Part shown: one piece after another, positions 44,121-54,677 of the stretch
How the letters are laid out: every line of letters begins with the position of its first letter
Numbering within the stretch: position 1 is the stretch's first letter
From: Microlunatus phosphovorus NM-1
Lineage (GTDB): Bacteria > Actinomycetota > Actinomycetes > Propionibacteriales > Propionibacteriaceae
Length of the DNA stretch: 64,000 bases
Reading direction: 5' to 3'
Assembly (NCBI RefSeq): GCF_000270245.1
Contig: NC_015635.1
Location: 3,100,001 to 3,164,000, forward strand
Position numbers and translations under genes: made by a program
Notes under the pieces: generated by a model
The model's input: the letters and a program-made list of their open reading frames with translations, nothing else
Databases searched by the model: none
What the model was told of the DNA's origin: nothing

Positions 44121-45521
44121 CTAGGCGCTCACCTTGGCCGACTTGGCCTCCGCAATCGCCTGGTCCCGCAGGGCCATGTACTCAGCCTTCGGCAGTGGCT
44201 TGCTCCCCGGGATATCGAGATCCTCGGCCCGGAAACGGTAGGTCTCCGGCGAGAAGAACGCCCCGAGGCAGGCAATGACGCACAGCGCCAGGGTGATGGT
44301 GCCGACGGTGAAGATCACGTGGCCGTGGCTCGATCCCGGTCCGGCGACCAGCGGGAACACCAACACCATGGCCGACGATGCGACCGTGCCCATGTTCTGC
44401 GAGATCGCCATGCCGCTGACCCGGTTCTTGGCCGGGAACTGCTCCGGGTAGAAGGCCGGGAACACCGCGTTGTAGCCCTGGTAGACAGCACCCCACATCA
44501 CCAGCGAGAAGATGATGGCCAACGGGACGCTGTGAGTGCTGATGGCCCACAAGTAGCCGTACGACATCAGGCCGCAAGCGATCGTGGACACCATCAAGCA
44601 CGGCCGGCGGCCGATCTTGTCGGACAGGTTGCCGACGACCGGGATGACGATCACCGCGACCAGGTTGCCGAGCAACGGGATCCACAGGTAGACGTCAGCG
44701 TGGAAACCGATCCCGTAGTCCTTGTTGGTGGCGTAGGTGGCACCGAAGATCGCGGTGGTGACCGCAACGATGTTGGTCAGTGCCATGCAGAAGACGCGGA
44801 TCATCGATCCCCTGCTGTCGCGCCAAGCGGCTGCGACCGGCGACCCTTGATCGCCTTCCGGGTTGTCAGCCGCCGTGTGGGTCTCATCGACCCGCTTCCG
44901 GATGAAGTAGCCGGCAACCACGACGAACGCACTCAGGGCGAAGGGGATCCGCCAACCCCAGCTGTGGAACGCCTCCTCGGACAGGAAGTGAGCCAACGGC
45001 AGGAAGACAGCGGCGGCCAGGATCTGGCCGAACTGGGTGCCCTGCAGGGTGAAGCTGCCCAGGTAGCCACGCCGACCGAGCGGCGCGTGCTCCATGATCA
45101 TCGAACTGGCACCCGAGATCTCGCCGGCGACGGCGAAGCCCTGGACCAGGCGCAGCACCATCAGCAAGCTCGGGGCCACGATGCCCACCTGCTGATAGGT
45201 CGGGAGCACGGCAACTGCCATGGTCGAGAAGCCCATCAGCAGCATACAAAGCACGAGCACGTTCTTGCGGCCGTGCTTGTCACCCCAGGCGCCGAGGACG
45301 AACGCGCCGATCGGGCGAGCGACGTAACCCACCGCATAGGTGCCCAGAGCGCCGATGATCGCCATCTGGGGATCGCTCTTGTCGAACATGATCAACGGAA
45401 AGATCAGGGCTGCCGCTTGGGCATAAATGAAGAAGTCGTAATACTCGAGGGCGCTGCCAATCCAGCCGCTGGCCGCGGCCTTCTTTGACTGCCCACTATG
45501 GCTTTGGGTTTCTGTAGACAT
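44121..45521 (-). CDS. MFS transporter of the MHS family, shikimate-type importer
   Basis: A 466-residue proton symporter with 12 helices. The MHS signature is clear: GSALEYYDFFIYAQAAALIF in helix 1, RPIGAFVLGAWGDKHGRKNV in loop 2-3 and QGFAVAGEISGASSM in helix 4. The closest described types are ShiA (shikimate), KgtP (2-oxoglutarate) and QsuA. It is the last gene of a minus-strand series after the AroE-like gene, with a 150-bp gap that contains an inverted repeat. GAGAGG precedes the ATG at 45521. I infer uptake of shikimate, quinate or a similar hydroxylated carboxylate for the neighbouring enzymes. Confidence 0.88.
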   Translation of the reverse strand: MSTETQSHSGQSKKAAASGWIGSALEYYDFFIYAQAAALIFPLIMFDKSDPQMAIIGALGTYAVGYVARPIGAFVLGAWGDKHGRKNVLVLCMLLMGFSTMAVAVLPTYQQVGIVAPSLLMVLRLVQGFAVAGEISGASSMIMEHAPLGRRGYLGSFTLQGTQFGQILAAAVFLPLAHFLSEEAFHSWGWRIPFALSAFVVVAGYFIRKRVDETHTAADNPEGDQGSPVAAAWRDSRGSMIRVFCMALTNIVAVTTAIFGATYATNKDYGIGFHADVYLWIPLLGNLVAVIVIPVVGNLSDKIGRRPCLMVSTIACGLMSYGYLWAISTHSVPLAIIFSLVMWGAVYQGYNAVFPAFYPEQFPAKNRVSGMAISQNMGTVASSAMVLVFPLVAGPGSSHGHVIFTVGTITLALCVIACLGAFFSPETYRFRAEDLDIPGSKPLPKAEYMALRDQAIAEAKSAKVSA

Positions 45522-45541
45522 AGAAACACCTCTCAGTTATG

Positions 45542-45556
45542 TGGCCGATACGGCCA
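45542..45556. promoter_or_regulatory. Inverted repeat in the MFS leader
   Basis: TGGCCG and CGGCCA, perfect 6-bp arms around ATA, 20 bp upstream of the transporter start codon. A hairpin or operator is possible. Confidence 0.35.
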
Positions 45557-45671
45557 ATTGATCACACCGCCATTGACGGATCAAGGAGAGTCACCGCACC
45601 AGATGGTCTCCTTTTGGTGCTGCCAAGCGGCCAGCCCTGCGTCAGAGGCGGAGCCGGAGCACCAGGTGGGG

Positions 45672-46592
45672 TCAGCTGATCACCTCCCGGACCCGAGCGT
45701 GCATGCGGGCACGGTCAGGCGTCACACCGGTGAACAACTCGAACGCCCGGTAGGCCTGTTCGGCGGCCATCCCGGCACCATCCACCGTCCGGCACCCGGC
45801 CTTGCGGGCCCGGACCAAGAGCTCTGTGGCGAGTGGAAAATAGACAATCTCCGATACCCAAAGGTCTGGCCGGAGCAGTTGATCCGGCACCGGGCACCCG
45901 GGATGGGTTGCCATCCCGATCGGCGTTGCGTTGATCACGCCCTCGGCACTGCTCAGCGCGGCGGCCAGATCATGGCCGACCTCGACTCGGTCGGCGCCGA
46001 ACAGATTGGCCATTCGGACCACCAGCTCGACGGCCCGATCCACCTCGAGATCGAAGATGGTCAGCTTGGGCGCGCCCAGGTCCAAGGTGGCGTACGCGAC
46101 GGCGGCTCCCGCCCCGCCCGCGCCTAGCTGCACGATCGGGCGCTTGCCGGCCTCCGGCAGGGCGTCGAGGAACGGTGCCTGATATCCGCACCAGTCGGTG
46201 TTGTGGCCAACGGCTCGGCCGTCCCGCAGGACCACGGTGTTGACCGCTCCCAAGGCGGTGGCCCGATCCGAGAGCCCGTCCAGATGCGGGATGATCGACT
46301 GCTTGAACGGATGTGTGACGTTGAAGCCGGAGAATCCGGACTGCATCGCCCAGGCAAGGACCGACGGCAGATCGGCCGCGGTGATGCCCCAGTCGAGAGC
46401 ATCCAAGATGTCGTAGGAAACCCAGAGCCCCTGTGCCGCGCCCTCGGCTTCATGCAAACCCGGAGTACGCGAGGCTTTGATCCCCTGACCGAGCAGGAAC
46501 AGCCGATGGCTGATCGGGCGTCCGACGGCCCACCGCGACATGTCGGCTTCGTCGGGCGTGACTCCGATCGAGCTGACTGAGCTATGACTCAT
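45672..46592 (-). CDS. Shikimate/quinate dehydrogenase-like protein (AroE family)
   Basis: A 306-residue member of the AroE family. The catalytic Lys and Asp are present (FNVTHPFKQ and HNTDWCGY), and the nucleotide-binding loop is LGAGGAGAAVAYA. The substrate-binding N-terminus reads LGQGIKASRTPGLHEAEG rather than the SxSLSPxxHN of biosynthetic AroE, marking the subclass found in catabolic clusters. It would interconvert 3-dehydroshikimate and shikimate or a related pair. Its ATG overlaps the stop of the TIM-barrel gene by four bases, so the two are translated together. Confidence 0.87.
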   Translation of the reverse strand: MSHSSVSSIGVTPDEADMSRWAVGRPISHRLFLLGQGIKASRTPGLHEAEGAAQGLWVSYDILDALDWGITAADLPSVLAWAMQSGFSGFNVTHPFKQSIIPHLDGLSDRATALGAVNTVVLRDGRAVGHNTDWCGYQAPFLDALPEAGKRPIVQLGAGGAGAAVAYATLDLGAPKLTIFDLEVDRAVELVVRMANLFGADRVEVGHDLAAALSSAEGVINATPIGMATHPGCPVPDQLLRPDLWVSEIVYFPLATELLVRARKAGCRTVDGAGMAAEQAYRAFELFTGVTPDRARMHARVREVIS

Positions 46593-47443
46593 GGCCGCCT
46601 TCCTTGCCCGCTGAGCGTTCGTTCGAGGTAGTGCCGCGCCGTCTCCAGGCACCGCCGAGCATGGCCTTCTGCGCCCAGGGTCCGCTCAGCGTCGGCATTC
46701 GGCAGCTCGATCGAGTAGGTCACGCACGGCATCCGCGCCAACATCGCGGCCGGGTCGGTACCGCCCTCGCCCAGGTAGCTGCGGCCCTCCCGGATGATCC
46801 GGGTCATCTCGTCCCGTTCTGTCGGGATCTCACCCGGGGCATCGCAGATCTGGATCACCGAGAACAGTCCGGCGGGGATCTCGTCCAGATCCGCCAAGCG
46901 CTCCCGGGACCGATGGAAGTGATGCAGATCGACCATCAGCCGAGCATTGGGCTCGTTCACCTCGGCGATCAGATCCAAGGCCTGGTGCATCGTCGTGATG
47001 GACGCGATCGGCACCCACTCCAGGTTGACCGTCAGGTCGTACTGAGCCGCCAGCCGGCACAGTCGACCGAACGCGTCCACCGCGTACCGCCGGTCCGGTG
47101 TCCAGACACTGCTGATCAGATGCCGGGCGCCGAGCTCGGCCCCGATCGCCAGATCAGGTTCGTAGCTCGCCGGATCGACCCCGTCCGCGATCCGGGCCAA
47201 CTCGATGTCGTGCAGTGGCAACCCGGTCTCGGCCAGCGCCCGTACCGTCTGCCGAAGCAGGTCGTCGCTGCGCGACAGGCTGTAGTCATGACCGGGCAGC
47301 CCATCACAGAGCAACCGCGGGCTGGCGTAGTCGTAGCCCGTGCGATGGGCGATCCGGATCAACTCCGGTGTCGGGGTGTCGATGAGCGTCAGATGCCCGA
47401 GCGAATAGCGCTGCGCGCCGCCATTGGCGCTGGAGCCTGTCAT
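46589..47443 (-). CDS. Sugar-phosphate isomerase/epimerase-fold TIM barrel
   Basis: A 284-residue AP-endonuclease-2-like TIM barrel (PF01261). Metal-ligand positions are visible in order: Glu in NLEWVPIAS, Asp and His in MVDLHHFHRS, Asp in IQICDAPGE, and Glu in SIELPNAD. The fold is shared by hydroxypyruvate, xylulose and inosose isomerases and by 3-dehydroshikimate dehydratases (AsbF, QsuB N-domain). Beside an AroE-like enzyme and a type II dehydroquinase, a dehydroshikimate-processing role is the leading guess, but an isomerase of a ring-derived keto sugar is possible. It starts 11 bp after the ThDP enzyme stop. Confidence 0.8.
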   Translation of the reverse strand: MTGSSANGGAQRYSLGHLTLIDTPTPELIRIAHRTGYDYASPRLLCDGLPGHDYSLSRSDDLLRQTVRALAETGLPLHDIELARIADGVDPASYEPDLAIGAELGARHLISSVWTPDRRYAVDAFGRLCRLAAQYDLTVNLEWVPIASITTMHQALDLIAEVNEPNARLMVDLHHFHRSRERLADLDEIPAGLFSVIQICDAPGEIPTERDEMTRIIREGRSYLGEGGTDPAAMLARMPCVTYSIELPNADAERTLGAEGHARRCLETARHYLERTLSGQGRRP

Positions 47444-47454
47444 GTCGATCGGCC

Positions 47455-49221
47455 TCAGGAGGTTGCGGCGTGATGGATGCCAGCACCTGGGGAGTAGATG
47501 TCCATGATGTTCCAGTGCCCCGAGGTCGGCGTCGGCACATTGATCATCGGCACGTCGATGACCACCGGTCGGTTCCGGGCGATCGCGTCGGCCAGCGCCG
47601 GCTTGAACTCGGCGGCGCTGGTGAGGCTGATCCCATCCACCCCGTACGCCCGGGCGATCGCTCCGAAGTCGGTCTCCACCGGGCCGTCGGCGTTTTCGAA
47701 GACGGTGCCGTAGGTGGTGTCGAAGTGCGCCTTCTCCAGGCCCGCGATGGTGCCGAAGGCGTTGTTGTTCATCACCACCCAGACGACGGCGATGCCCTTC
47801 TCCCGCGCGGTGTAGAGCAGACTCGGGTTGGCGCCGAAGCCACCGTCGCCGACCAGCGAGACGACCACCCGCTCCGGAGCGGCCAGCTTCGCGCCGAGCG
47901 CCGCTGGGGCGCCGAAGCCCATGGTGGCGAAGCCGCCGGGGGTGAACACCGACCCGGGGGTCAAGATATCCATCTGCTGGGCCATGCCGTTCTTGTTCCA
48001 GCCGACGTCGGTGGTGATGATGGCGTCCCGCGGCAGCACCTCACGCGCCTCGGCCAGGATCCGCTCCGGCCGCATCGGCCAGGCATCGCTGGCCACGGCC
48101 GCGGCGTTGCCCGCGGCGAACTCGTCGTGGTTGCGCTTGATCTCGGCCAGCAGCTCCGGCCGTTGTACCCCGGTGGGGGCCAGCTTGCGTGCGGCGGTGA
48201 CAAGGGCGGCCAGAGCGGGCTTGAGGTCGGCGACCGCGCCGATCTCCAGCGGATAGTTGCGGCCCAACTCGGCGGGATCGATGTCGATCTGCATCAGCTT
48301 CGTGTCGGGAATCTGGAAGGTGTACTTCTCCTCCCAGGACGAGCTGTCCGCCTCGGCGAAGCGGGTGCCCAGCGCCAGGATCCAGTCCGCGTTGCGGGTG
48401 GCCTCGTTGACGAACTCGGTGCCCCAGAAACCGGTCATGCCGAGCACGCACGGGTTGTCGTCGGCGACCACGCCCTTGCCCATCAGGCTGTGGGTGACCG
48501 GGAGCTGGAGATGGTCGACCAGCTCGGCCAGCTCATCGGTGGCATCGGCCAGCACGACGCCGCCGCCGACGTGCAGCAGTGGCCGCTCGGCCGCGAGCAG
48601 GTTGCCGACGATCCGTTCCGCCGTAGCCGGGTCGAGCGAGGGCTTGACCAGCTCCTGGGTGTTGGCCATCACCTTGTCGAAGGTGGCGACGTCGACCTCA
48701 CGGGAGAAGATGTCCATCGGTACGTCGACCAGCACCGGGCCCGGTCGGCCGCTTTCGGCCAGGATGAAGGCCTTGTCCAAGATCTCGGCGATCAGGTGCG
48801 GGGACTCGACCCGCCAGACCCGCTTCACGAACGGCCGGTAGATCTCGGACTGCGCACCGTCGGCGTGCAGGTTCACCTCCTGGTGGGGGTGCTTGCCGTA
48901 GTAGTGCGACGGGATGTCACCGGCGATCACCACCATCGGCACCGAGTCCAGGGCGGCGTTGGCCACCCCGGTAGCGGCGTTGGTCAGTCCCGGGCCGAGA
49001 TGGGAAAGCACGACCGAGGCCTTCTTGGACGCGCGGGCGTACCCGTCGGCCGCATGCGAGGCCAGCTGTTCGTGCCGGGTGTTGACGAACTCGATCTGAT
49101 CGGACTTCGACAAGGCGGCCAAAACCGCGATGTTGGTGTGCCCGCAGAGACCGAAGATGTGTTTGACGCCGCGGTGCTCCAGGTAGCGGACGAGCTGGTG
49201 CGAGACGAGGTCTGTGGTCAT
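47455..49221 (-). CDS. ThDP-dependent enzyme, acetolactate synthase-like
   Basis: A 588-residue three-domain ThDP enzyme. The catalytic Glu is in NTRHEQLASHAADGYARAS (~residue 50), the pyrophosphate/Mg motif runs from GDGGFGANPS to NNNAFG (~460-490), and the middle domain has SLMGKGVVADD. It is not typical IlvB: the HQEVNLHADGAQ region after GDIPSHYY differs and no regulatory subunit gene adjoins. Candidate reactions are 2-keto acid decarboxylation, carboligation, or cleavage of a cyclic diketone as by IolD or cyclohexane-1,2-dione hydrolase. GGAG precedes the ATG at 49221. The citryl-CoA-lyase-like gene ends 13 bp upstream. The substrate is open. Confidence 0.82.
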   Translation of the reverse strand: MTTDLVSHQLVRYLEHRGVKHIFGLCGHTNIAVLAALSKSDQIEFVNTRHEQLASHAADGYARASKKASVVLSHLGPGLTNAATGVANAALDSVPMVVIAGDIPSHYYGKHPHQEVNLHADGAQSEIYRPFVKRVWRVESPHLIAEILDKAFILAESGRPGPVLVDVPMDIFSREVDVATFDKVMANTQELVKPSLDPATAERIVGNLLAAERPLLHVGGGVVLADATDELAELVDHLQLPVTHSLMGKGVVADDNPCVLGMTGFWGTEFVNEATRNADWILALGTRFAEADSSSWEEKYTFQIPDTKLMQIDIDPAELGRNYPLEIGAVADLKPALAALVTAARKLAPTGVQRPELLAEIKRNHDEFAAGNAAAVASDAWPMRPERILAEAREVLPRDAIITTDVGWNKNGMAQQMDILTPGSVFTPGGFATMGFGAPAALGAKLAAPERVVVSLVGDGGFGANPSLLYTAREKGIAVVWVVMNNNAFGTIAGLEKAHFDTTYGTVFENADGPVETDFGAIARAYGVDGISLTSAAEFKPALADAIARNRPVVIDVPMINVPTPTSGHWNIMDIYSPGAGIHHAATS

Positions 49222-49234
49222 CGATGACTCCAAT

Positions 49235-50107
49235 TCAGGCATTCGGTTCGAGGTCACGGTGCTTGATGCCGGTGTAGTTGTACGGGATCTGCGGCGGCAT
49301 CGGGCCCTTGATCCGGCCGCCTTGCTGGGTCTGTTCCCAGGCGTGGGCGAGGATCCCGACCGAGCGGGAGAGGATGAAGATGCCGCGGCCGAGGGCAGGC
49401 TCGAAGCCGAGCTCGGAATAGATGACCGCGGTGGCACCGTCGATGTTCATCGGCACCCGGCGGCTCCGGCCGGCGCTGATCGAGTCCTCCACCGCCCGGC
49501 CGATGGCGGCGAAGCGACCGCTCACCGCACCGGCGGCGGCCTGGTCGTCGACCAGCCCGAGCAGCCGCGGAGCGCGCGGGTCGAGCGGGTGGAACCGGTG
49601 GCCGAAGCCCGGTGCGTACCGGATGCCCCGCTCCTTCCAACCTGCCCAGACCTCGGTGGCGAGGCGTACCGTCTGGTCATGATCGAGGGTGGCGCCCTCG
49701 CCGTAGCCGGCCTTGACGAGCGCCTGGTCGATCTCTGCGTACAGCTCCATGCACTGCTGACCCGCGCCGCCGTGCACATCGTCCAGCACGTTGATCGCCG
49801 AGGCCATCGCACCGTTCAGCGGCAACCCGCAGGTCACCGACATCCGGCTGATCGAGATCGACGGAGCCTGCGGACCGTGATCCACCGAAGCGACCAGCGC
49901 CGCCTCCAGCAAGGCGCCCTGCTCGGCGGTCGGCACCTCGCCGCGCAGCATCAGCCAGATCATCTGCGGGAAGCTGAGCCGGCCGATCAGCTGCTCGATC
50001 GGAAACCCGCGCACCCCGATGTAGCCGGGGTGGATGTCGATGATGTCGGTGCTCCACCAGCGCTCGGCGGCCTCGACCAGGGCATCGTCGCCCAGGGGAT
50101 CGCTCAC
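49235..50107 (-). CDS. Citryl-CoA lyase / citrate-synthase-like protein
   Basis: A 290-residue citrate synthase-fold protein, shorter than citrate synthase (~430) and of citryl-CoA lyase (CCL) size. The catalytic triad is intact: His in DDVHGGAGQQ, His in GFGHRFHPLD and Asp in MNIDGATAVIY. Such proteins either cleave a citryl-CoA-like thioester into acyl-CoA and an oxo acid or run the condensation. The GTG start overlaps the stop of the acylating aldehyde dehydrogenase by four bases. The upstream enzyme makes an acyl-CoA and this one could use it as a nucleophile; this is inference. Confidence 0.85.
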   Translation of the reverse strand: MSDPLGDDALVEAAERWWSTDIIDIHPGYIGVRGFPIEQLIGRLSFPQMIWLMLRGEVPTAEQGALLEAALVASVDHGPQAPSISISRMSVTCGLPLNGAMASAINVLDDVHGGAGQQCMELYAEIDQALVKAGYGEGATLDHDQTVRLATEVWAGWKERGIRYAPGFGHRFHPLDPRAPRLLGLVDDQAAAGAVSGRFAAIGRAVEDSISAGRSRRVPMNIDGATAVIYSELGFEPALGRGIFILSRSVGILAHAWEQTQQGGRIKGPMPPQIPYNYTGIKHRDLEPNA

Positions 50108-51534
50108 TGCTCGAGCGCGGCGTCGTAGAAGTCGCCGAAGAGCTCTTCGTCGCTCGGCTTGTCCTCCGGGATCGGTCGCGCCACCCAGGTGGTGTTCAGG
50201 TAGTGCTTCAGGTGCACGTTCTCGGAGGTGACGTTGCCGCCCCATGTGCCGCAGCCCATCGAGGAGGTCATCGGCATGCCGTTGTTGAAGGCACCCGCGT
50301 TCGCCTTGGACTGCGGCTGGCGGACCATGATCCGCGACACCGGAGCGGCCAGGCCGAGCCGGTGGATGTGGTCGTCGTCGTGGGTGTAGATGCCGCAGGA
50401 GTGGCCCTTGCCGCCGACCTCGTAGACCGCCCGCATCGCGTCCAGTGCGTTCTCGAACTCGCCCTCGTAGCGGTGCACGGTGAGCAGCGTGGTCAGCTTC
50501 TCCCGGGAGAACGGGTGGTCGTCGCCGATGCCGTCGCCCTTCACGAAGATGAAGGTGGTCGACTCGGGCACCTCGAAGCCGGCCGCCGCGGCGAGCTTGG
50601 CCGGGGCGATCGCCACCGTGTCAGGCAGCCGGTGTGCCTCGTCGTCCCACATCACCCGCTCCAGTGCGTTCCGCTCATCGCCCTCGGCCAGGTAGCCGCC
50701 CTCGCTCTGCAGCGACTCGATCATCTGGTCCCAGATGGACTCGTGGATGATCAGGTTGCCGTCGGCCGAGCAGCCGGAGCCGAAGTCGGAGGTCTTGGAG
50801 ATCCGGCTGTTCCGAGCCGCGATGTCGACATCCGCGGTCTCGTCGATGATCATCGTCGAGTTGCCCGCACCGACCCCGTAGGCCGGGGTGCCCGAGCTGT
50901 ACGCCGCCCGCACCATCGGCTGGCCGCCGGTGGCGATCACCAGGTCGCTGGCCGCCATCAGCGCCTGCGACATGGCGACGCTGGGCTGGGTGATGCACTG
51001 CAGGATGTCGGCGGGCGCACCCTCGGCCTCCAGCGCCTCGCGCATCAGCCGGACGGTTTCGAAGGTGGTCTTCTTGGACCGCGGATGCGGGGAGAAGATC
51101 ACCACGTCGCGCGCCTTGATCGCGTAGATGGCGTTGCCGGCCGGGGTCAGGTCGGGGTTGGTGGTCGGCACGATGCAGCCGATCAGGCCGACCGGCTTGC
51201 CGTACTTGACCAGACCCTTGGCCTCGTCTTCCTCGATGATGCCGACGCTCGGCTGGCGCAGCGCATCGCGCAGCACGCCACGGATCTTCATCCGCTTGCC
51301 CATCCGGCTGACCGGATCGCCCAGCCCGGACTCCTCGATGCCCTCGGCGACCAGCCGGGTGAAGGTGGTCTTGTTCGCCACGGCCCAGGCGATCGCCTGA
51401 CACAATCGGTCGACCCGTGCCTGGTCGTAGGTCTCGATGATCTGCTGCGCAGCTCGCGCCTTGGCAATGAGCTCAGCCAGCTCCACCTCCTGCTCGGGGC
51501 GTAGCGGTTTCGGCTGGCTCGGCGCTGCTGCCAT
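50104..51534 (-). CDS. CoA-acylating aldehyde dehydrogenase
   Basis: A 476-residue aldehyde dehydrogenase of the acylating class (EutE/SauS/AdhE-N-like), converting an aldehyde, CoA and NAD+ to acyl-CoA and NADH. The catalytic Cys is in DFGSGCSADGN, the NAD/CoA-binding segments include GCIVPTTNPDL and ATGGQPMVRAAYSSG. The closest functional types I can name are sulfoacetaldehyde and succinate-semialdehyde dehydrogenases (acylating). There is no shell-targeting extension. CTGGAG precedes the ATG at 51534. A putative promoter lies in the 129-bp gap upstream, so this is the first gene of the six-gene catabolic operon. Confidence 0.88.
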   Translation of the reverse strand: MAAAPSQPKPLRPEQEVELAELIAKARAAQQIIETYDQARVDRLCQAIAWAVANKTTFTRLVAEGIEESGLGDPVSRMGKRMKIRGVLRDALRQPSVGIIEEDEAKGLVKYGKPVGLIGCIVPTTNPDLTPAGNAIYAIKARDVVIFSPHPRSKKTTFETVRLMREALEAEGAPADILQCITQPSVAMSQALMAASDLVIATGGQPMVRAAYSSGTPAYGVGAGNSTMIIDETADVDIAARNSRISKTSDFGSGCSADGNLIIHESIWDQMIESLQSEGGYLAEGDERNALERVMWDDEAHRLPDTVAIAPAKLAAAAGFEVPESTTFIFVKGDGIGDDHPFSREKLTTLLTVHRYEGEFENALDAMRAVYEVGGKGHSCGIYTHDDDHIHRLGLAAPVSRIMVRQPQSKANAGAFNNGMPMTSSMGCGTWGGNVTSENVHLKHYLNTTWVARPIPEDKPSDEELFGDFYDAALEQ

Positions 51535-51571
51535 GACATCTCCAGGGTCGGTTTCGGTGGTTTCGGGGATC

Positions 51572-51600
51572 AGTATGCAGGAGTTCGACCCGTTTGTGAA
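51572..51600 (-). promoter_or_regulatory. Putative promoter of the catabolic operon
   Basis: On the minus strand TTCACA (51595-51600) and CATACT (51572-51577) lie 17 bp apart, 5/6 and 4/6 matches to the -35 and -10 consensus, 38 bp upstream of the acylating dehydrogenase start. The flanking GAAC/GTTC pair could be part of an operator. Confidence 0.45.
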
Positions 51601-51663
51601 CCATCTAGTTAGTTCAATTTTCTGGAGTCGATCCGCTGCCGTCCGGGTGGGCTCGGACGAGGG

Positions 51664-52113
51664 CTACGCGGTCTTGGCCTGCTCCAGTTGAGCGATGACG
51701 AACTCCAGCGCCAGGGTGTAGCCCTGCACGCCGAAACCGGCCATCACGCCGACCGCGATGTCGGAGAGGTACGAGTGATGGCGGAAGGCCTCACGCTTGT
51801 GCACGTTGGAGATGTGCACCTCGCAGAACGGGATCGAGACCCCGGCGAAGGCGTCCCGGATCGCCACGCTGGTGTGGGTGTAGGCGCCCGGATTGATCAC
51901 CACGAACTGGGTGCCGTCGGTGCGTGCGGCGTGGATGCGATCCACGATGGCGCCCTCGTGATTGCTCTGGAAGCAGTCCACCCGGTGACCCGCGGCCTCG
52001 CCCTGGGCGACCGCGGCCGCCTCGACATCGGCCAGCGTCGCGGCACCATAGATGCCCGGCTCACGGGTCCCGAGCAGGTTCAGATTGGGGCCATTGACGA
52101 GCAGGATGGACAT
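51664..52113 (-). CDS. aroQ: 3-dehydroquinate dehydratase, type II
   Basis: A 149-residue type II dehydroquinase, converting 3-dehydroquinate to 3-dehydroshikimate. The start [18 protein letters not shown], the active-site loop with Arg and Tyr, [31 protein letters not shown] and [18 protein letters not shown] are all intact. AAGGAG precedes the ATG at 52113. In qsu/qui clusters the same enzyme serves quinate catabolism; in biosynthesis it follows aroB. Here it lies 41 bp after an AroK-AroB fusion and 129 bp before the catabolic operon, so either role is possible. Confidence 0.95.
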
Positions 52114-52154
52114 GAGCGGCTCCTTCGAGGTGCGAACGTTCGGCCGTGATTGTG

Positions 52155-53732
52155 TCAGGAGGCGGCGAGATCGGCCAACGCACCCGCCACCTGCGCGCGT
52201 GTCGGCTGGGCGCCCGTGACCGGGTGGCCGATCCCACGCAGCAGGATGAAGCGCCAGCCATTGCGGTATTTCTTGTCGCGCTCCAGGGCCCAGGCGAGTT
52301 GGTCGACCGTGAAGGTCGCCTGCACCGGCAGCCCCAACGCCTGCAGGACCGCCCGGTGCGATTCGACCTCGGTCTCGTCCAGCCACCCCAGGCGATGAGA
52401 CAGGTGGGCCGCCGCCATCAGGCCCAGACCGAGCGCACCGGGCTGGGCCGGGGCCGCCGCGGCGAAGGCGCGGGCGAAGGTGTGCCCGTAATTCAGCTGG
52501 GCTCGAGCACCTTGCTCACGCTCGTCGGAGGTGACGATGTCGGCCTTGATCTCGACGCTGCGGCGTACCGCTCGAGTCACGGCGATCCGCTCGCGGGCGA
52601 CCAGGTCGGCACCATATTCGATCAGGAACTTCAGCAGCTCGCGGTCAGCCAGGAGTGCATGTTTGGCGATCTCCGCCAGACCGGCCGAGTAGTCAGCCCC
52701 GTCCCGGGCAGCGGCCAGCTCCACATCGGAGACCACCAGGACCGGCTGATGAAGCAGACCCAGCAGATTGCTGCCCTCGGGCAGGTCCAGGGAGCACTTG
52801 CCGCCGACCGCCGAGTCAGCCTGCGCTTCCAACGTGGTGGGGACCAGCGCCAACGGCATGCCACGGTTGTAGGTCGCAGCCAGGAAGCCGACCACGTCGC
52901 AGATCTCCTCGCCGCCGACACCAAGCAGCAGATCACCCCGATGGACGGCCAGCTCGGCCAGGCGGCTCGCCAGCTCGCCGAGCGTCGCGAGGCTCTTGAC
53001 CGGTGTCTGGCTGCTTCCAGCTGGGACGGTGAGCTGATGGACCACCAGCTCTCGGTCTGCGACCGCGACGGCGAGCTGCTCGCCGACCGCGTGGGCCTCG
53101 GCACCTGAGATGACCACGATCCGCCGGGCCTCGGGCAGTCTCGGCAGCAGTCGGCCCACCTGGCGGATCAGCCCGTGGCCCACGTGCACGCGGTAGGAGC
53201 CTCCGGGCGGGGCGACCAGGACGCCGCGACTGCCGTCGAGCTCGGTTGTTCCGGTCAGCTGGGAGACGATCTCCAGCGCGATGTCCTCGACCCGGCGACC
53301 GGTGGTCAGCGAGGTCAGGGTGGCGACCGAGGCATAGACGGCCAGGCGTGAGGCGTACAGCTCCGGCAGGTCTGGTCGTCCGAGCAGCGGACGGTAGCGA
53401 TCACCGCGCGCCCGGGCCAGCGCCTCGTCGAGGTCCACGTGCAGGTAGACCACGGTGTGGCCGCGAAGCAGTTCGCGGGTGGTCGTCGAGCCGCAGGCGC
53501 CACCCCCGAGGGACAACACACATGCCGGTCCATCGAGGAGGTCCGCGATGGTCTGCTCCTCGACCTGGCGGAACCCGGTCTCCCCCACTTCGGCGAAGAG
53601 TTCCGGGACGGTACGCCGCTGCTCGTGTTCGATGACCAGATCACTGTCGACGAACGGCAGGCCCAGCCGCTCGGCAAGCAACCGTCCGATGGTCGTCTTT
53701 CCGGCGCCCATGAAGCCAATCAGGACGATCAC
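52155..53732 (-). CDS. Shikimate kinase fused to a degenerate dehydroquinate-synthase domain
   Basis: A 525-residue fusion. Residues 1-172 are a complete shikimate kinase ([15 protein letters not shown], then [14 protein letters not shown] and LSLGGGAC). Residues ~178-525 have the dehydroquinate synthase fold ([55 protein letters not shown]). Several conserved sites differ: the nucleotide-site GGG reads GGE (~274), the second His of GHTxGHA is Arg (~421), and the third zinc ligand, His in the HGxAVxxG motif, aligns with Pro (~432, PGALGLGLM). The first two ligands (Glu and GHT His) are kept. The AroB half may be inactive, regulatory, or altered in reaction. The start is GTG. Confidence 0.85.
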
Positions 53733-53921: not shown

Positions 53922-54677
53922 TCAGTACTGGATGGTCAGGCCGCCGTCGACCACGATCACCTGACCGGTGATGTACGACGCGCCGGGACCGGACAGGAAG
54001 ACCACGGCACCGGCGATCTCGGCGGGATCGCCGAAACGGCCGAGGACGGTGCGCTCGCGGACCCAGCGCTGCCACTCCGGGGTGGCGAACATCGGCGCAT
54101 TGACCTCGGTGCCGAAAGCCCCTGGGGCGACGGCGTTGACCCGGATGCCGTGCTCCCCCAGGTCGGCTGCCATCGCTCGGGTCAACCCCTCCAGACCAGC
54201 CTTCGCGGCTGCATAGCCGACGTCGCCGCGATGACCGAGGATGCCGCCGACCACCGAGGTCACATTGACGATCGCCCCGCCGCGTACGCCGTCGGCGACC
54301 ATCCGGGCCGCGACCAAGCGGCTGAGCGCGTACGCCGCGGTCAGGTCGATGTCGACCAGCCGTCGGAAGTCGGCGACCGGCAGGTCGAGGGCGCCGCGCC
54401 GGTCCCGCTGACCGACATTGTTGACCAGGATGTCGATCGATCCGAGCGACTCCACCGCCTCCGGGCTCACGGTGCCGGCATCGAACACTGCCGGTTCCGC
54501 GGCCAGACCTTCGGCGACCAGCGCGGCCACCACAGATCCGGTCCGCTCGGGGTCCCGGCCGTTGATCAGCACCCGCGCACCGGCTCGACCAAGTCCGCGG
54601 CACATCTCCAGGCCGAGACCCCGATTGCCGCCGGTGACCAGGGCAGTCTTCCCGGCCAACTCATCGGACACGGTCAC
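53922..54677 (-). CDS. Short-chain dehydrogenase/reductase
   Basis: A 251-residue SDR with the NAD(P) motif TGGNRGLG (residues ~15-22), NNVG, the catalytic Ser in VNVTSVVGG and YAAAK. Arg in LINGRDPER suggests NADP preference. It resembles gluconate 5-dehydrogenase/3-oxoacyl reductase-type enzymes. Its GTG start overlaps the lgt stop by four bases, so it is the last gene of the trp-lgt transcript, and it ends 189 bp before the AroK-AroB fusion. The substrate is unknown. Confidence 0.85.

Follow-up and report, generated by a model that had tools for sequence, protein, structure and literature searches.

What does a bacterium do with a thiamine diphosphate (ThDP) enzyme, a coenzyme A (CoA)-acylating aldehyde dehydrogenase and a citryl-CoA-lyase (CCL)-like protein, encoded in one operon with genes of the quinate/shikimate type? 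The operon in question lies in a 64,000-nucleotide stretch of Microlunatus phosphovorus NM-1 (hereafter the window), which spans bases 3100001-3164000 of a contig of 5,683,123 bases. Plants are rich in the acids quinate and shikimate, and the established bacterial route for them leads to protocatechuate and then to an oxygenase. It is judged somewhat more probable than not that the operon is catabolic for quinate, and for shikimate via 3-dehydroshikimate, and that the ring is opened without aromatization.

The Operon and the Predicted Route

All genes are on the minus strand. The acylating aldehyde dehydrogenase (50104..51534) is followed by the CCL-like protein (49235..50107), the 588-aa ThDP enzyme (47455..49221), a xylose-isomerase-like TIM barrel (46589..47443) and an AroE-like dehydrogenase (45672..46592), with overlaps of 4 bases or gaps of 11-13 bp between them. 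A shikimate-type proton symporter of the MHS family (466 aa, 44121..45521) comes 150 bp further on. This six-gene arrangement had been claimed in a preliminary description of the window, and every gene is present as claimed. Gene starts were set by homology and the available start codons, several of the listed open reading frames (ORFs) being longer than the genes. The AroE-like ORF (45672-46652) probably starts at the ATG at 46592, overlapping the stop of the TIM barrel gene, the ThDP ORF (47455-49437) at the ATG at 49221 and the CCL-like ORF (49235-50245) at the GTG at 50107.

In the predicted route, the importer would take up the acid and the AroE-like protein, as a QsuD-type dehydrogenase, would oxidize quinate to 3-dehydroquinate. 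The TIM barrel would then dehydrate 3-dehydroquinate (C4-H, C5-OH) in an IolE-like manner to 1-hydroxy-3,4-dioxocyclohexane-1-carboxylate. Hydrolysis of the C3-C4 bond by the ThDP enzyme, with C4 becoming the acid and C3 the aldehyde, would yield homocitrate semialdehyde, which the acylating dehydrogenase would convert into homocitryl-CoA. Finally, the CCL-like protein (or an enzyme of the HMG-CoA-lyase type) would release acetyl-CoA and 2-oxoglutarate by a retro-Claisen cleavage. Shikimate is considered a co-substrate because a 3-dehydroquinate (DHQ) dehydratase is part of the cluster; this reversible enzyme, AroQ, would return 3-dehydroshikimate to 3-dehydroquinate. With the balance C7H12O6 + H2O - 4H = C7H10O7 = C2H4O2 + C5H6O5, the chemistry so inferred would be balanced, independent of O2 and free of carbon loss.

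The center of this proposal is C1 of 3-dehydroquinate, which carries a hydroxyl and a carboxyl group and is flanked by CH2 groups, like the center of citrate. If the substrate keeps this tertiary alcohol, the presence of a citryl-CoA-lyase-like enzyme is explained, and acetyl-CoA and 2-oxoglutarate are the predicted products. The exit has to be at 3-dehydroquinate, since dehydration of 3-dehydroshikimate by the TIM barrel would give protocatechuate. We infer each reaction and substrate; the genes, their families, their conservation and substitution, and their catalytic-type residues are observed. That a ThDP enzyme could open a ring here, with acylation and CCL-like cleavage to follow and with neither protocatechuate nor an oxygenase, was the core idea of the preliminary description. 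It is supported by a neighborhood that is conserved and in which enzymes substitute for each other, and it becomes more specific, while the mechanism remains a prediction from sequence.

Protein Families and Conserved Residues

The ThDP enzyme contains the three domains PF02775, PF02776 and PF00205. It matches the acetolactate synthase large subunit model TIGR00118 with 411 bits, without reaching the cut-off of 538, and IolD (TIGR04377, cut-off 715) has no place among the best 25 of its 53 NCBIfam matches, all of 411 bits or less. A separate IolD, scoring 871 bits and hence above that cut-off, is encoded elsewhere in the genome. In a tree of 24 of the 84 clade members described below and nine outsiders, the clade of the window enzyme stands apart from the IlvB and IolD of the same genome (support 98/99); the order of the outsiders is unsure, with long end branches for own_L006, own_L003 and IlvB. 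Among the similar folds listed, BbmA and carboligases rank above cyclohexane-1,2-dione hydrolase (CDH). Residue conservation was assessed on sets of 84 ThDP enzymes, 37 TIM barrels (at least 200 bits), 51 dehydrogenases and 30 CCL-like proteins. His28 and Glu51 of the ThDP enzyme are invariant across 27 rows.

The TIM barrel (PF01261) has Glu142, Asp172 and Glu246 invariant across 28 rows. Among the folds listed, those nearest to its AlphaFold model (pLDDT 91.8) belong to Lmo2234, to IolI and to the TIM/HPPD fusion protein 5hmq, with which it shares ~18-19% sequence identity. A hydroxypyruvate isomerase model is its sole NCBIfam match; as this scores 22 bits only, a glyoxylate carboligase/hydroxypyruvate isomerase route was rejected.

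The CCL-like protein passes the cut-off of NF004864 (423 bits, cut-off 261), and its best solved structure is the citryl-CoA lyase 6hxp. His158, His216 and Asp269 (ORF numbering), presumably the equivalent of the catalytic triad of citrate synthase, are conserved in at least 95% of the 30 members. For the aldehyde dehydrogenase, the best solved structures are all CoA-acylating (8cei, 5j78, AdhE), and Cys255 is conserved in at least 95% of the 51 members. By sequence, it belongs to the CoA-acylating branch (EutE/AdhE/SucD). It scores 472 bits with NF047625, the acylating sulfoacetaldehyde dehydrogenase SauS, for which the cut-off is 600. A role in sulfonate metabolism, at which the likeness to SauS and, in Azoarcus, the annotation of sulfite/sulfate exporters hinted, was rejected on this failed cut-off and on the recurrent neighbors, which are a DHQ dehydratase and AroE.

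The AroE-like protein scores 381 bits with NF009201, above the cut-off of 235. Its best solved structures are two quinate/shikimate dehydrogenases (3jyo and 2nlo, 237 bits each), presumably both from Corynebacterium glutamicum, and the next protein follows at 120 bits. With PRK14027, it remains under the cut-off (247 bits, cut-off 515); hence, it is QsuD-type by its nearest relative and not by a curated model. The importer also stays below the cut-offs, both of the metabolite/H+ symporter TIGR00883 (347 bits, cut-off 443) and of the shikimate transporter PRK09952 (222 bits, cut-off 538), and it likely takes up quinate or shikimate.

Conservation of the Neighborhood

A scan of genome contigs was keyed on the ThDP alignment only, and the best 80 of at least 577 confirmed relatives, 66-89% identical, were taken. 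Three plasmid loci and the window itself bring the total to 84 loci, none of which was dropped; 56 of them are at least 19 kb long. A gene was counted at a tblastn E-value of at most 1e-6 and 50 bits and recounted by identity. The references for the HMG-CoA-lyase (HMGL)-like protein, the Zn-dehydrogenase, the ordinary aldehyde dehydrogenase (ALDH) and the transporters were picked from the same loci, because they recur there. The hosts of the 80 loci belong to the Actinomycetota, Pseudomonadota, Bacillota and Thermodesulfobacteriota. They include Propionivibrio soli, Accumulibacter and Rhodoferax among the Betaproteobacteria, in addition to Alphaproteobacteria, and, among the Bacillota, Domibacillus, Brevibacillus, Anoxybacillus, Anaerobacillus and a Clostridiales bin. 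Desulfobacterota/Geobacteraceae bins are further hosts of the ThDP enzyme.

The TIM barrel is matched in 63 of the 84 loci, in 37 of these with at least 42% identity. The acylating dehydrogenase is found in 55 loci (55-100% identical, with one exception at 26%), the DHQ dehydratase in 48 (all at 35% identity or more) and the AroE-like protein in 40 (34 of them at 40% or more). One or other of the latter two is present in 68 loci, and in 47 of the 56 long ones. Every long locus holds a DHQ dehydratase, AroE, Zn-dehydrogenase, QuiC/HPPD-type protein or PQQ dehydrogenase, and 31 of them lack none of the five roles. Other neighbors are the ordinary ALDH (23 loci), a CoA transferase (23), the Zn-dehydrogenase (25) and transporters of the Dct, Tct or MHS type (57). 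The Zn-dehydrogenase (median distance 18 bp), the TIM barrel (155 bp) and the acylating dehydrogenase (920 bp) lie close to the ThDP gene, for the most part on its strand.

As a control, 13 of 14 stretches with CCL homologues and without a ThDP gene were searched at the same threshold, a stretch of 6.5 kb (L051) being left out. None of these 13 loci of ~20 kb contains a DHQ dehydratase, AroE, TIM barrel or acylating dehydrogenase. The clustering is thus more than chance, since the neighbors recur across phyla and these four are absent from all control loci. A synteny confined to this genome would have spoken against the preliminary description, but the arrangement recurs in other actinobacteria and in other phyla. 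Nor do the genes group with unrelated pathways: from one phylum to the next they keep together, with functional substitutes for some of them.

Individual loci illustrate this organization. In Micropruina (L057), the order is almost that of the window, with AroKB, AroQ, a CoA-transferase-like protein (33%), dehydrogenase, CCL, ThDP, TIM, AroE and MHS, and the importer adjoins the cluster in both L057 and L058. When plasmids were searched with the ThDP protein (tblastn), the single near relative, 67% identical, came from the Azoarcus sp. KH32C plasmid NC_020548. The neighborhood there is annotated with aroD, shikimate dehydrogenase, the ThDP enzyme, citryl-CoA lyase and CoA transferase, and also with a sugar phosphate isomerase and a 4-hydroxyphenylpyruvate dioxygenase. 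The Azoarcus homologue of the TIM barrel is 38% identical and located ~13 kb away, and its AroE-like protein is 33% identical to that of the window. The ThDP enzymes of Streptomyces sp. NBC_01450 (L038; 54% identical) and Nonomuraea gerenzanensis (L039; 52%) have CCL-like, CoA transferase, aldehyde dehydrogenase, AroE-like and PQQ-dehydrogenase genes as neighbors. Around two more distant plasmid ThDP genes (L040, L042), the neighbor set was not found.

In Propionivibrio, the ThDP family occurs in 13 of 28 genomes of the genus (E-value of at most 1e-150), of which nine were already among the 84 loci and four are new. In 13 stretches from 11 of the genomes, the TIM barrel is always beside the ThDP gene, and an AroE-like gene is present in ten.

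Three side observations concern the same ThDP family. Three copies of the ThDP gene are present in one genome of the Propionivibrio genus (G123; L168, L169 and L170), a distance of 12 kb separating two of these; TIM barrel and AroE-like genes go with every copy, and both an HMGL-like and a CCL-like gene with one. In Nonomuraea, both quinate routes may be present in one region, as a QuiC-type gene (L039:22613-24616; 585 bits, cut-off 1200) shares 26 kb with the AroE-like, MHS importer, CCL-like, CoA transferase, ALDH and ThDP genes. On a plasmid of Antarctobacter heliothermus (L041), a ThDP gene (37%) lies near AroQ and several NAD(P)-dependent oxidoreductases, with the rest of the set absent; this is possibly another hydroaromatic or sugar-acid route.

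Apparently Interchangeable Enzymes

The lyases alternate between loci. A CCL-like protein is present in 31 of the 84 loci and an HMGL-like one (326 bits with NF004283, cut-off 246) in 32, with both in a single locus (L038; Fisher p 1e-7). An ordinary ALDH plus a CoA transferase often stands in for the acylating dehydrogenase, which is found together with the ALDH in four loci only (p 3e-8); the ALDH accompanies a CaiB-type CoA transferase in 18 (p 8e-10). The AroE-like protein and the Zn-dehydrogenase, similarly, occur together in two loci (p 2e-6). These p-values are descriptive, because shared ancestry links the loci, two of which (L104 and L111) belong to the same genome. Of the 22 loci lacking a lyase, the 12 long ones were followed. 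They come from 11 genomes, all of which have HMGL-like genes elsewhere, although such genes are common and the evidence is weak; one has a CCL-like gene.

Such a pattern is expected of one pathway in which unrelated enzymes perform the same reaction. Oxidation and CoA activation would take one step or two, and acetyl-CoA would be released by an enzyme of either the citrate synthase or the HMG-CoA lyase type. Both citryl-CoA lyase and HMG-CoA lyase free acetyl-CoA from a 3-hydroxy-acyl-CoA that is a tertiary alcohol, which is the arrangement of quinate C1-C3 once C3 is a thioester. The wider proposal is a widespread, O2-independent and carbon-conserving pathway from quinate and shikimate to acetyl-CoA and 2-oxoglutarate that would explain the anaerobic degradation of hydroaromatics without aromatic intermediates. 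It would include three modules that each come in two exchangeable versions: AroE or a Zn-dehydrogenase, the acylating dehydrogenase or an ALDH plus CoA transferase, and a CCL-like or an HMGL-like lyase. The chances that this proposal holds are considered even.

Possible Protocatechuate Genes in the Hosts

Dioxygenases were surveyed in 27 ThDP-carrying genomes, namely that of M. phosphovorus and 26 selected ones, mostly named isolates. No match to PF00775 (intradiol dioxygenase) was found in 18 of them, and five of these also have no LigB match. LigB-family matches (PF02900) are present in 18 of the 27 genomes, a family so broad that it is weak evidence on protocatechuate cleavage; given these matches, meta-cleavage may take place in some hosts. 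In M. phosphovorus itself, PF00775 is matched once and in part (36 bits, positions 24-98 of 182), and the LigB family once (80 bits).

Genes of the QuiC/HPPD type are near the ThDP gene in 25 of the 84 loci, and some hosts therefore also have the protocatechuate route. In four loci (L070, L088, L096 and L110), the QuiC-type genes are separate, extra genes. An adjacent, complete protocatechuate route, which the preliminary description had named as an argument against its idea, is hence not a constant companion of the cluster.

Weighing of the Explanations

Several observations speak against the route as drawn. At least one of the five roles is missing from the stretch in 25 of the 56 long loci, and 14 of these long loci have no TIM barrel match; of the 63 matches in all loci, 37 reach 42% identity, and those at 30-41% may represent unrelated TIM barrels. 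Neither lyase type is present in 22 of the 84 loci, and the exclusion between the two is not strict, since HMGL-like and CCL-like genes are side by side in one genome of the Propionivibrio genus (L168, L169), outside the 84. The CoA-transferase matches are, in 18 of 25 cases, only 30-36% identical to the Azoarcus one. In sequence, CDH is a more distant relative of the ThDP enzyme than acetolactate synthases, glyoxylate carboligase and BbmA are, and the enzyme does not group with IolD in the tree. The nearby QuiC/HPPD-type genes point in the same direction. The weakest parts of the route are the TIM barrel step and the direction of cleavage. Step 3 could differ, as the nearest folds include isomerases (IolI, Lmo2234) besides the 3-dehydroshikimate-dehydratase-like fusion, and an aldehyde on C3, which the lyase would require, is a prediction. 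The whole route is predicted from genes.

In one rival explanation, the ThDP enzyme would cleave 3-dehydroquinate directly, with no dehydration before it, the C3 ketone and the C4 hydroxyl making this substrate a cyclic acyloin. Acetyl-CoA would then be split from the acylated C3 arm, 4-hydroxy-2,5-dioxopentanoate would be left to other enzymes, and the TIM barrel would be an isomerase further downstream. The long loci without a TIM barrel match and its strong presence in just 37 of the 84 loci are in line with this, as are the isomerase-type folds and the membership of the acyloin-cleaving benzaldehyde lyase in the fold family of the ThDP enzyme. Further enzymes would be needed for the five-carbon fragment, however, and no aldolase other than the HMGL-like protein is found among the 20 recurring gene groups scanned (two small groups lay outside the scan), whereas dehydration first leads to central metabolites with no gene missing. 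Direct acyloin cleavage is considered unlikely. In an ordinary qsu/qui cluster, on the other hand, the TIM barrel would be a 3-dehydroshikimate dehydratase forming protocatechuate, and the ThDP enzyme, dehydrogenase and lyase would serve another pathway. The importer, the QsuD-type dehydrogenase and the DHQ dehydratase fit this plan, and the TIM barrel model is near the TIM/HPPD fusion protein and AsbF. That the TIM barrel and ThDP genes keep together in 63 loci (37 of them strong), that distinct QuiC-type genes exist beside them and that PF00775 is absent from two-thirds of the surveyed genomes make it distinctly improbable.

The substrate and the purpose of the cluster were also considered. 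A similar opening of another quinate-related hydroaromatic or cyclitol acid, with quinate and shikimate as side substrates, would agree with the several importer families in the loci (TRAP, tripartite tricarboxylate, MHS, ABC) and with the diversity of the AroE-like proteins, to which the divergent Azoarcus sequence belongs. The DHQ dehydratase in 48 loci and the QsuD-type dehydrogenase nevertheless point to the quinate/shikimate ring, and little credence is given to this variant. A biosynthetic cluster, in which AroKB, AroQ and the AroE-like protein make a shikimate-derived unit that the ThDP and acyl-CoA enzymes elaborate, might account for AroKB and AroQ being second copies in the genome, and the HKA synthase BbmA is among the solved ThDP structures nearest to the window enzyme. 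Against this, a majority of the loci have Dct, Tct or MHS transporters, AroKB-type matches occur in just four of the 84, and many hosts are environmental bins or soil and sediment isolates of very different groups. A biosynthetic purpose is regarded as very improbable indeed, and an aminoshikimate-like biosynthesis was set aside on the same evidence.

Neighboring and Related Genes

Upstream of the operon, also on the minus strand, are AroQ (51664..52113, starting at the ATG at 52113), the shikimate kinase-3-dehydroquinate synthase fusion AroK-AroB (52155..53732), a short-chain dehydrogenase beyond it (53922-54677), and trp genes with lgt. The positions of AroQ and of the fusion, reported earlier as lying just upstream, are confirmed. 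AroQ is a type II DHQ dehydratase (PF01220; TIGR01088 with 192 bits, cut-off 170), and the fusion matches PF01202 and PF01761/PF24621. Both are extra copies, because the genome has a second AroK and AroB, as separate genes at 2.85 Mb (40% and 34% identical to the fusion), and another AroQ (44% identical) paired with AroE at 1.40 Mb; a third AroE is located at 0.56 Mb. Such extra copies of AroK-AroB and AroQ (51664-53732 in the window) stand beside the operon in two genera, the other case being L057.

A shikimate kinase gene accompanies the module in 15 Bacillota loci (L084, L085, L089-L092, L095, L098, L105, L111, L119-L121, L127 and L135); its presence near a catabolic module might, as a guess, serve to salvage imported shikimate for the synthesis of aromatics. 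A conserved 449-aa protein is also encoded near the Bacillota module (L095:7305-8654, minus strand), with homologues in 14 loci. It has no Pfam match at an E-value of at most 1e-5 and no NCBIfam match at one of at most 1e-20.

The search with the CCL-like protein in order-level relatives led not to the operon but to a different module, with an IclR regulator, a CoA transferase and a lyase. In L043-L050 and L052-L056, a CaiB-type CoA transferase and a CCL-like lyase are combined; the CoA transferase is found in 12 of the 13 loci, the IclR regulator in ten and TctA, of a tripartite tricarboxylate transporter, in ten. This looks like a module for uptake and cleavage of a citrate-like acid. For the lyase, a tricarboxylate substrate would be in keeping with those CCL-like homologues that occur with a CoA transferase and TctA. 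A second CCL-like gene of M. phosphovorus (G000:C1:5552571-5553353; L053), 49% identical, is of this kind, beside a CoA-transferase-like match and without a ThDP gene.

Comparison with Known Systems

Among the papers listed from the open-access literature, as far as titles and abstract openings go (subscription journals and preprints lying outside), no description of such a route was found, and no genes for anaerobic hydroaromatic breakdown were found in the literature searched. Fermentative hydroaromatic degradation is known from Propionivibrio limicola (Brune et al. 2002, as cited in PMC7029222, PMC4930944, PMC11881992 and PMC4140718). The likeness concerns this physiology, as presented in the citing papers, and the ThDP family is known at the level of the genus only. 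If the predicted route is true, a hydroaromatic ring would be opened by inositol-type chemistry and would feed the TCA cycle directly, which would be possible in anaerobes and fermenters. It would provide gene-level targets for an anaerobic breakdown so far described mainly as physiology, and functions for one family each of ThDP enzymes and TIM barrels, as well as for many genes annotated only as citryl-CoA lyase or shikimate dehydrogenase.

The closest analogy is the degradation of myo-inositol. There, IolE, a metal-dependent TIM barrel, forms a cyclic 1,2-diketone, which the ThDP enzyme IolD hydrolyzes. The proposed logic would be the same, with a TIM barrel leading to a cyclic 1,2-diketone and a ThDP hydrolysis leading to an acid and an aldehyde. 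The window enzyme, on the contrary, belongs to a clade apart from IolD, and the substrate and the downstream CoA and lyase steps would be different. CDH, presumably from an Azoarcus, is only 25% identical to the window enzyme, which is nearer to acetolactate synthase-type enzymes. The lyases of the cluster are of the same families as citryl-CoA lyase and HMG-CoA lyase, with catalytic-type residues kept in the CCL-like protein; they would differ in the substrate, homocitryl-CoA, and in forming 2-oxoglutarate instead of oxaloacetate or acetoacetate. With the qsu/qui pathway, finally, the window has the importer, the QsuD-type dehydrogenase and the DHQ dehydratase in common. The ThDP enzyme, the acylating dehydrogenase and the lyase are added to these, and the route proposed for them would proceed without an aromatic product or an oxygenase.

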